From NCBI GenBank assembly GCA_001767455.1, contig MELC01000086.1, positions 1-64,000 on the forward strand: a stretch of 64,000 nucleotides of DNA, in the 5' to 3' direction. Below are positions 27,712 through 47,815 of the stretch, one piece after another. The stretch's first letter is position 1; every line of letters begins with the position of its first letter. The position numbers and the translations under genes were made by a program. This DNA comes from Acidobacteria bacterium RIFCSPLOWO2_12_FULL_66_21. GTDB lineage: Bacteria > Acidobacteriota > Vicinamibacteria > Vicinamibacterales > 2-12-FULL-66-21. The notes under the pieces were generated by a model that saw only the letters and a list, made by a program, of their open reading frames with translations, searched no databases and had not been told where the DNA came from.

Positions 27712-28506
27712 ATGCCCCTCCGCATCGGCTTCGACATGGACGGCGTCCTCGCCGACTTCGCGTCCGCGTTTCTGGAGATCGAAACGCGGCTGCTTGGGCC
27801 CGACGCGCATATCAGCGCGGATCGGCCGGAAGTTGAAGAAGAAAGGGAGTCAGCAGGCAGCAGGCAGCAGGCAGCTGGCAGCGAGAACGAAGCAGGCAGC
27901 AGGCAGCAGGCAGCTGGCAGTGAGACCGAGGACACGAAGGAAGACACGAAGACTGACGGGAATACAGAAGCCGAGGGTCCGAGCCCGCGCGAGTTGAGGC
28001 GCCAGCGGGACGCGATCTGGAACGCGATCCGAACGACGCCGGGCTTCTGGGAAGGCTTGAAGCCGATCGAAGAAGGCGCGGTCCGGCGTATCCACGAGAT
28101 GATGCTGCGCCACCGGTGGGAAGTCTTCTTCATCACCCAGCGCCCCGCCACTGACGGGGACACCGTGCAGCGCCAGACGCAACACTGGCTGGTCGAGCAG
28201 GGCTTCGACCTGCCGAGCGTCCTCGTGCTCGGTGGCTCGCGCGGCGCCGCCGCTGGCGCGCTTCGCCTGGATTACCACGTGGACGACAGCCCGCAGAATT
28301 GCCTCGACGTCATCGCCGAATCGAGCGTAAAGCCGATCCTGATCGCTCCGGACGCGGACGACAAGATCGTCGCCAGCGCACGCAAACTCGGGATCGGTAG
28401 CGCGCGCTCCATCTCTGTGTGTTTGGACATCCTCGAAGAGGCGACCACCGTACGCGCAGAACCACGCCTGCTGGCTCGTATTGCCGCTCTGGTGGGGTGG
28501 AAATAA
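27712..28506 (+). CDS. HAD-like phosphatase (NagD/5'-nucleotidase-like) with repeat-encoded linker
   Basis: A 264-residue protein starting at ATG 27712. FDMDGVLADF at 7-16 is HAD motif I with nucleophile Asp8 and Asp10; FFITQRPATDGD near 143-155 matches the 5'(3')-deoxyribonucleotidase-like motif II (Thr); DYHVDDSPQN near 185 gives motif IV acids. Substrate unknown. Residues about 43-90 are a low-complexity polar linker holding two copies of AGSRQQAAGSE followed by EDTKEDTKTDG. The DNA there is the same repeat that fills spacers elsewhere, so the linker looks inserted. Neighbours are vapBC upstream and a repeat block downstream. Confidence 0.75.
   Translation: MPLRIGFDMDGVLADFASAFLEIETRLLGPDAHISADRPEVEEERESAGSRQQAAGSENEAGSRQQAAGSETEDTKEDTKTDGNTEAEGPSPRELRRQRDAIWNAIRTTPGFWEGLKPIEEGAVRRIHEMMLRHRWEVFFITQRPATDGDTVQRQTQHWLVEQGFDLPSVLVLGGSRGAAAGALRLDYHVDDSPQNCLDVIAESSVKPILIAPDADDKIVASARKLGIGSARSISVCLDILEEATTVRAEPRLLARIAALVGWK
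27851..27955. repeat. GCAGGCAG and GACACGAAG repeats inside the HAD-like gene
   Basis: Two nearly identical blocks of (GCAGGCA)n ending in GCAGCTGGCAG (27851-27882 and 27890-27920) are followed by two GACACGAAG units (27930-27954). The first unit also fills 31221-31430, the second 59991-60028, both non-coding. Total insert length keeps the frame open. Confidence 0.85.
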
Positions 28507-31135: not shown

Positions 31136-31438
31136 CCGCAGCTCGCCTGCCCCGCCGTAGCGCAACGCGCGAAGGCGGGTGGCTCGTGGCTCGCAGCTCG
31201 TGGATCGCGCTGTCCCGGAAAAGCAGGCAGCTGGCAGCAGGCAGCGGGCAGCAGACAGTATGCGGTAGGCAGTAGGCAGTGGATCACGCTGTCCCGCAGA
31301 AAAGCTGGCAGCAGGCAGCAGGCAGCTGGCAGCGGATCACGCTGCAACGCAGCAGGCAGCAGGCAGCAGGCAGTAGATCACGCTGTCCCGCTGCACGGGC
31401 AGCACGCAGCAGGCAGTGGATCACGCTGTCAAGCTGGG
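31136..31438. repeat. Composite short-unit repeat block
   Basis: A non-coding stretch between rfbA and the HEPN gene. It starts with a CGCCGTAGCGCAACGCGCG palindrome-like patch (about 31150-31170), then GGCTCGTG units (31178-31206), then five rounds of a composite module: (GCAGGCAG)n or (GTAGGCA)n followed by GGATCACGCTGTCCCG (near 31201, 31281, 31334, 31375 and 31417). Spacing between modules varies (40-80 bases), so this is not a CRISPR. The same joined units occur inverted at 61391-61428. Confidence 0.85.
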
Positions 31439-36847: not shown

Positions 36848-36984
36848 GGTGCTGAGAGGTGCTGAGAGGTGCTGATGGGTGCTGATGGGTGCTGATGGGT
36901 GCTAAGGTGCTGACGTGCTGAGGTGCTCTGAGGGCCGCACCCCTGAGCACCTTTCAGCACCCCTCGGCACGCTTCAGCACCCCA
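36848..36984. repeat. GGTGCTGA / TCAGCACC repeat block
   Basis: About eight direct copies of GGTGCTGA or GGTGCTGATG (36848-36928), then about five copies of the complement TCAGCACC (36944-36984), so the block can fold on itself. It occupies the gap between two - strand genes. Confidence 0.8.
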
Positions 36985-44573: not shown

Positions 44574-44798
44574 AACTCCAAACTACAAACTTCAAACTCC
44601 AAACAGACTCCAAACTCCAAACTCCAAACCTCAAACCCCAGAGCCCCCACCTCCGCGCGCGTAAGAATCGAGCGCGCTACGGCGCGGCCTCGCCGTAGCT
44701 CGTCGCTGGAATTTTGGCGCGCCGAGCGAAGGCGGGCGAGCCCCGAGCCGCCGCCTTCGCGCTTTGCGCTTCGGCGTGCCAGGCCCTTAGCCCCGAGC
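44574..44798. repeat. CCAAACT repeat and other spacer sequence
   Basis: Seven or so units of CTCCAAA/CTTCAAA (44574-44635) precede a GC-rich stretch with GCTACGGCG/CGCCGTAGC inverted patches (44678-44700) and AGCGAAGGCGGGCG (44724-44737). No gene is seen. It is the spacer between fadE and the thiolase gene. Confidence 0.75.
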
Positions 44799-46025
<1,227 letters not shown>

Positions 46026-46034
46026 GGTGCCTCT

Positions 46035-46108
46035 GGCAGCCCTGAAGGGCTGCGCAACACAGCGGTATAGCGTGAAGGCCCTTCTACGTTCTACCTTCTA
46101 CGTTTCCG
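46035..46108. repeat. REP palindrome J plus TTCTACC units
   Basis: GGCAGCCCTGAAGGGCTGCG (46035-46054) is REP family J; it is followed by TTCTACGTTCTACCTTCTACG units (46083-46103). They lie between the alpha/beta hydrolase stop and the thiolase start, both - strand. Confidence 0.75.
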
Positions 46109-46110
46109 TC

Positions 46111-46953
46111 TCATCCCTCATAGTCCTTGAGGAGGTCTTCGAGCGCTTCGCCGACTTCCTGTGTCTTTCCCTCGAACAGATGGTCCGCGCTGTCGATGAT
46201 CGCGAGTTCTCTGGGCTCCTCGAGCCGCGCGTAGAATGCCCGCAGGCCCGCGAGCGGGCAGACCTCGTCGTCCTCGCCCTGCACGAAGAATTTCGCCTTC
46301 CTGCTCGCCAGCGTCCGCTCGAACGTGTACTCGTGGCCCGACAGCGACGTCGCCACCGGCGGCGCGATGCCGATCAGCACCGACACGCGGTCGTCGTCAG
46401 CGCCAACCTCGAGCGCGACCCACGCGCCGAAAGAGAATCCGGCGGCCCAGAGCTTCACCCCTGGATATCGCGCCGCCATGTAGTCGAGCGCACTCCTGAA
46501 ATCATCTTTCAGAATCGTCGGGGCCCCCTGCACCCCGACTGGCGGCCTCCATTGCGCCGGCGCTTCGTCGCCGGCTCCATTCCGGCCGCTCCGTTCTTGA
46601 ATCGTCGGGGCCCCCTGCACCCCGACTGGCGGCCTCCATTGCGCCGGCGCTTCGTCGCCGGCTCCATTCCGGCCGCGTTTCTCTCCGTCGCCGAGATCGA
46701 ATGTGCCGGCGCTCCGGCCGACGCCGCGGAAGTTGAACCGCAGAACGGCGCACCCGATCCTCACCAGCCCCTTCGCTCCCTGAAACACCGCTTTCGTGTG
46801 CATCGTCCCGCCATACTGCGGGTGCGGGTGCGCGAACACGACCGCCGCGCGAATCGCCGGGGCCTGCCCTGAGCGAGCGTGCGAGCCGAAGGGCTCGTCG
46901 AGAATGGCATCGAGCCGTCCGGCCGGGCCGATCAAGTCAGTGACTGTGGGCAT
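46111..46953 (-). CDS. Alpha/beta hydrolase with in-frame duplicated insert
   Basis: A 280-residue alpha/beta hydrolase of the dienelactone-hydrolase/YheT-like group. AAVVFAHPHPQYGGTMHTKA near 36-55 is the oxyanion side, LWAAGFSFGAWVAL holds the nucleophile elbow G-F-S-F-G near 172, and the last acid and His are near FVQGEDDEVCP and DSADHLFEG. Between SAGTFDLGDG and DDFRSALDYMA there are about 55 extra residues made of two copies of a 29-residue unit, NGAGDEAPAQWRPPVGVQGA plus a tail. ATG 46953 gives the start; the open frame further upstream lies in the next gene. Substrate unknown; position suggests acyl-thioester or ester cleavage. Confidence 0.82.
   Translation of the reverse strand: MPTVTDLIGPAGRLDAILDEPFGSHARSGQAPAIRAAVVFAHPHPQYGGTMHTKAVFQGAKGLVRIGCAVLRFNFRGVGRSAGTFDLGDGEKRGRNGAGDEAPAQWRPPVGVQGAPTIQERSGRNGAGDEAPAQWRPPVGVQGAPTILKDDFRSALDYMAARYPGVKLWAAGFSFGAWVALEVGADDDRVSVLIGIAPPVATSLSGHEYTFERTLASRKAKFFVQGEDDEVCPLAGLRAFYARLEEPRELAIIDSADHLFEGKTQEVGEALEDLLKDYEG
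46512..46675. repeat. 77-bp direct repeat (period 87 bp) inside the hydrolase gene
   Basis: Two identical 77-base copies (46512-46588 and 46599-46675), 87 bases apart, so the frame holds. Each contains two hairpins: GTCGGGG/CCCCGAC and GCCGGCG/CGCCGGC, a REP-like design. It was probably inserted once, then duplicated. Confidence 0.9.
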
Positions 46954-47726: not shown

Positions 47727-47815
47727 GGCAGCCCTGAAGGGCTGCGCAACAGAGTCAGTCTCGCGCTGGACCCAGCACCCGGCACCTTTGAGCACCCCTT
47801 AGCACCTCTGAGCAC
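47727..47815. repeat. REP palindrome J and GCACC units
   Basis: REP copy GGCAGCCCTGAAGGGCTGCG (47727-47746), then GCACCCGGCACCTTTGAGCA and more GCACCTC units (47777-47815). It separates the hydrolase start from the fadB-like stop. Confidence 0.8.

Follow-up and report, generated by a model that had tools for sequence, protein, structure and literature searches.

An alpha/beta hydrolase gene on the minus strand (46111..46953, 280 aa), recognised by its open reading frame, Pfam matches and ortholog alignment, carries a doubled hairpin-bearing segment in the 64-kb window (the whole stretch of DNA analysed), which raises the question whether this segment is a part of the hydrolase or a sequence that entered it from elsewhere.

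The insert in the hydrolase gene

The hydrolase product matches Pfam Hydrolase_4 and Abhydrolase_11 above the cut-offs, and its reading frame is otherwise intact, with the GxSxG region conserved in the ortholog alignment. The full insert occupies 171 nt of the minus strand (46507..46677, residues 93-149), as delimited by the ortholog alignment, the split matches of seven of seven same-family orthologs and the gap against the PDB chain 3trd_A. It contains, all on the minus strand, the element copy closer to the hydrolase start (46599..46676; 78 nt, two hairpins, 100.6 bits with the covariance model), the 9-nt spacer AAGAACGGA (46590..46598) and the other, identical 78-nt copy (46512..46589), found by the repeat search and the covariance model. 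The original prediction of two identical copies was right as to their identity, and one base short as to a length of 77 bases and an end at 46675, the true values being 78 nt and 46676. The copies are spaced by 87 nt, that is 29 codons, and the predicted in-frame repetition of a 29-residue unit agrees with residues 93-149 being extra in comparison with all the orthologs and with 3trd_A. Each copy folds, as had been proposed, into two stem-loops, with -23.7 kcal/mol and a z of -3.2 relative to 200 shuffled sequences. The recent duplication that had been suggested is borne out by the differences between copies: 0/78 within the hydrolase pair versus at least 3/78 to every other 78-nt copy compared, so that the second unit is most likely a local duplicate.

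The pair is the longest of two exact direct repeats of at least 30 nt in the window, the second one, at 27852, being an array of heptamer type; tandem arrays of degenerate 7-bp and 10-bp units (AGCAGGC, AACTCCA and GGTGCTGATA types) are seen at 27851-27929, 31222-31428, 44574-44640 and 36848-36983. A thiolase (fadA-like) gene contains at 45342-45435 two long in-frame hairpins of the GGTGCC-TGACCCC and GGGGCC-GTCCCC types, which resemble the palindrome flanking a RAYT at locus L031. With a different sequence and only 4 genomic matches, counting the one at its own place, the fadA element was rejected as a member of the same family, in line with the distinction drawn at the outset.

The 57 residues are missing in six of six orthologs from GTDB contigs, five of them bearing Acidobacteria or Vicinamibacteria in their titles and one of them Rhodospirillales. 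They are also missing in seven of seven same-family orthologs, obtained from a search of 11 other genomes, seven with a match; here the matches break at query residues 92-93 and resume at 149-151. Identical junctions suggest that, among these 13 sequences, at least two come from genomes counted twice. Thus, the segment is not general to the hydrolase family, all 13 ortholog sequences compared being without it, and in 3trd_A the adjoining residues 88 and 89 flank the position of the insert. The AlphaFold2 prediction was run with six aligned sequences, and the best of five models was used, two being poor (mean pLDDT 37 and 34). In it, residues 77-143 have pLDDT below 50 and most of the remaining core above 80, the insert forming a predicted disordered loop after the strand 68-75 and before the helix 144-162, ahead of the nucleophile elbow. 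The location between cap and core that had been assumed for it is not supported by this model, which puts it between a strand and a helix of the core. The insert presumably leaves the hydrolase fold intact, and the enzyme appears to tolerate rather than use it.

A dispersed family of two-hairpin repeats

A search with one copy by blastn gave 55 places in the same genome, and the covariance model, built from 18 copies that are among its matches by construction, gave 70 matches at E<=0.01, in other genes as well as between genes; the genome search proposed for further copies was therefore positive. Matches were found in 10 of 39 relatives (11 of 40 genomes with the own one), including 7 of the 11 relatives of the same family and 3 of the 28 from other families of the order, and tandem pairs of the element recur elsewhere in this genome and in others. 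The unit comprises about 65-78 nt, with two unlike hairpins in a fixed direct order, the second having a 7-bp stem and a loop of 9, TGCAGGGG, that hardly varies over the 134 distinct rows. As to the marks of a MITE, terminal inverted repeats and a target-site duplication, the ends of the element, GCGGCC and GATTC, are not mutual inverted repeats, and there is one 4-nt candidate for a duplication.

Both hairpins covary strongly. An alignment of 134 distinct copies, drawn from four genomes, has standard pairs in 93.2% of the cells and double changes at 12 of 18 pairs, with a covariation score of 0.264 versus 0.092 in shuffled and at most 0.043 in slid alignments; it was produced by fitting to the model and is thereby biased in its favour. 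Without such fitting, the alignment of 18 copies also has double changes, at 7 pairs. Strand-specific G.T pairing, considered as a sign of RNA function, gave no signal, the 30 G.T pairs being about equal to the 23 A.C pairs, so that nothing here indicates which strand folds. No Rfam family was matched at the repeat, a sub-threshold Guanidine-II match being located elsewhere only, and no report of this repeat family in Acidobacteriota was found in the literature searched.

Placement of the copies within and before genes

For the placement counts, the genes were called by a simple codon-usage caller made for this analysis, and copies on the same strand within 200 nt were joined into loci; those of the relatives G001, G004 and G013 represent higher-scoring copies only. 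The own genome has 52 loci, 41 extragenic and 11 in genes, 9 of the latter in sense; the two antisense copies lie in an M49 gene and a DsbH-like gene. In the count over four genomes, 11 of 13 in-gene loci are in sense. In-frame copies of the own genome were found in the genes for UvrA, MetRS, an MMPL transporter, an M20 peptidase, GH3 (N-terminal), the YkuD L,D-transpeptidase, with two tandem in-frame units of 28 codons, and others, and in G013 there is one in NhaA. The insert position is filled by 40 residues in UvrA versus 13 in the PDB template and by 38 residues in NhaA versus 5. The M20 peptidase had no PDB match at 1e-20, and its insert therefore rests on Pfam, while the insert of MetRS falls in a variable linker with no clear gap against PDB.

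The frame reading GVQG is used in the hydrolase, UvrA, M20 peptidase and NhaA, and other frames in YkuD and MMPL, which is evidence against a selected peptide. The family consensus has TGA in the frame of the hydrolase, where the hydrolase copies read TGG, and the window copy is stop-free in all six frames, so that the element would survive more easily in genes. In-frame copies are favoured partly by detection, since a disrupted gene would have escaped being called as a single ORF.

A ribonuclease G/E-like gene, so named from its translation, includes three tandem copies and an N run (L049:1501-1753, G000 C64:84197-84449). It was rejected as an in-frame insertion, as the reading frames on its two sides differ; either the gene is broken or the assembly is unresolved here. 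In a stretch that we take to be rimM-trmD-like (L042/L050, G000 C91:106586-108341), three tandem copies precede the first gene and one overlaps the end of the second. In G004 (L210:1281-1919), two tandem copies make up the C-terminal end of an ORF, presumably nucleotidyltransferase-like, ending just before the next start codon.

The most unusual trait of the family is its sense placement, often a few nucleotides before a start codon. Of the 41 extragenic loci of the own genome, 28 have a sense start codon no more than 60 nt from their 3' end, in comparison with 2 of 41 in the mirrored count, and the counts lean the same way in G001 (16/23 versus 1/23), G004 (9/18 versus 1/18) and G013 (7/15 versus 0/15). 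Over the four genomes, 71 loci fall in unidirectional gaps, 65 of them pointing in sense and 6 the other way (p 1.3e-13), with 19 loci in divergent gaps, 4 in convergent ones and 3 without a neighbour. By a simple rule that also picked up a few in-gene copies, an ATG was called within 60 nt past the second stem in 63 of 129 copies, 19 of those 63 having it at 8-10 nt. Two G001 copies, both shortly before a start codon, have empty sites in the genus-mates G008 and G011.

As a control, another repeat of the genome, GCAGCCCT..AGGGCTGC, was counted in 21 loci from the first 30 places of its 180 genome copies; it is also near start codons, with one direction preferred (1 sense-labelled versus 9 mirrored within 60 nt), and is in genes in 0 of 21 loci. 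The proximity to start codons is thus partly general to repeats in this compact genome, the shortness of the intergenic gaps or some feature of the whole lineage contributing to it, and in comparison with the control the family stands out by a stronger orientation bias and its in-gene copies. Two copies of the control repeat are present in the window itself (46036-46054 and 47728-47746), preceding the start codons of the thiolase gene and a second hydrolase gene by 10-11 nt.

Origin of the insert and its meaning

The dispersal, the distribution among relatives and the copies in other genes point to a REP/RPE-like palindrome that was, in addition, duplicated locally. Very probably, a non-autonomous mobile palindrome of this kind entered the hydrolase gene in sense and in frame and was then duplicated in place. 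One copy would have been inserted between codons 92 and 93 (GE-[KRMS]-[EDA]-D-F in the orthologs), at a purine-rich spot, GAGAAAGATGATTTC, suggested by the orthologs, and the unit then doubled with the 9-nt spacer, through slippage or unequal recombination, to add 57 residues as a disordered surface loop. The comparison with the empty ortholog sites offers a candidate 4-nt target duplication, GAAA, on the 5' side (46678..46681, minus strand) and on the 3' side within the 171 nt (46507..46510, minus strand), which is suggestive at this single site, there being no clean case otherwise. The mobility may depend on a putative trans-acting enzyme working on the hairpin, with insertion preferred 5' of A/purine-rich DNA in a strand-specific manner; such a preference would account both for the in-gene copies lying mostly in sense and for the siting before start codons or Shine-Dalgarno sites. 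The 8 bases after the in-gene copies, counted with the inner hydrolase copy excluded, are 37% A (44/120) versus 16% in coding strands, although this A-rich flank may belong partly to the element itself.

The same DNA might be read instead as a functional subdomain of this hydrolase lineage, as the kept frame, the otherwise intact gene and the conserved GxSxG region would allow; this is hardly credible, given its lack in all 13 orthologs compared and its recurrence in unrelated genes and intergenic sites in different reading frames. The second unit could be an assembly artefact of a strain with one unit, since the genome is a 91-contig draft and other tandem arrays of the family contain N runs; the hydrolase, in contrast, is without N, tandem pairs exist elsewhere, both in this genome and in others, and a single unit would keep the frame too (87 = 29 x 3), so that we regard an artefact as quite improbable.

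A classical REP of the GTAG or CGTC type, mobilised by a RAYT (Y1 transposase), would likewise be dispersed, palindromic, tandem and sometimes in genes, as described for such repeats in the part of the source cited (PMC3733652), and the own genome has three Y1_Tnp matches. Its three RAYT loci, however, have different palindromes at their flanks, GCAGCCCT..AGGGCTGC at two of them (arrays at L032 and L033) and GGGGTCAGACCCC at one, and the covariance model (R1) found the element at none of 32 RAYT loci sampled from the Y1_Tnp matches (3 own, 29 of relatives; 0/32 at E<0.01, best E 0.061), against the RAYT association of GTAG REPs and REPtrons. The GTAG/CGTC REPs are described, in the portion cited, as a single stem-loop of 20-40 bp with an unpaired GTAG or CGTC (TGTC/CCTC) tag, the CGTC ones with stems of 8-9 bp and loops of 4-5 nt, mainly near gene 3' ends (PMC3733652). 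The element departs from this form as a two-hairpin unit of 65-78 nt, with a second stem of 7 bp and a loop of 9, no such tag, CGTC letters that are partly within the stem and co-vary to other pairs, and a position near 5' ends. The many dispersed similar palindromic copies (70 matches, with covariation) agree with REPs in general, and 41 of 52 loci are extragenic, yet divergent gaps outnumber convergent ones (19:4), unlike a location by gene 3' ends. A classical REP is, accordingly, unlikely.

The placement before genes gives some ground, though rather little, for a portable 5' leader; the element would then be transcribed as a hairpin module, its AGGGG loop similar to a Shine-Dalgarno core, and would assist or adjust translation of the gene behind it, the in-gene copies being strays. 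The sense orientation in 65 of 71 unidirectional loci, the start codon 8-10 nt past the stem in 19 of 63 copies, the nearly invariant loop and the G001 copies right before the ATG, with no space for another ribosome site, are in its favour. The patchiness among relatives (10/39), the tandem arrays and the in-gene copies suggest mobility instead, G.T pairs are not in excess of A.C pairs, and purine-rich sites in genes are also used. It is to the same small degree conceivable that an Acidobacteriota mobile hairpin places itself in the direction of transcription before start codons as a translation-start or leader module, with the in-gene copies as peptide inserts.

The palindromic elements of Rickettsia were reportedly described by Ogata et al. 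in 2000 and 2002. The BIMEs and REPINs are RAYT-mobilised inverted REP pairs forming two-hairpin composites, and the mobile palindrome proposed here is similarly a composite of two hairpins, although unlike ones in direct order, with no RAYT link found in 32 loci. In-gene palindromes are already known (Rickettsia RPEs; Di Nocera 2013). According to the parts of the sources cited, the RPEs lie in frame inside protein genes (PMC10969869, PMC3733652), and the element behaves like them, though the likeness is in behaviour only, as a short dispersed palindrome in frame in unrelated protein-coding genes, including repair and RNA-related ones; it differs in the host phylum, the mostly intergenic sense placement before start codons and the use of several frames. 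It also resembles the in-gene GTAG/CGTC REPs, for which the cited portion describes dimers within uvrA as well as synthetase genes with copies (Di Nocera et al. 2013, PMC3733652), by its hairpins, dimers, clusters and copies in uvrA and a tRNA-synthetase gene.

Thus, the protein-invading palindromes, best known from Rickettsia, are extended to a GC-rich lineage that is acidobacterial to judge by the orthologs, with UvrA again a target, and annotators should be aware that stretches of peptide like GGVQGxPP in these proteins derive from the repeat. The sense-directed 5' placement, unlike that of the published REPs, makes the family a testable case of site choice by mobile hairpins and of possible expression signals, and if the leader reading were true, a repeat would be rewiring gene starts as well as protein loops.
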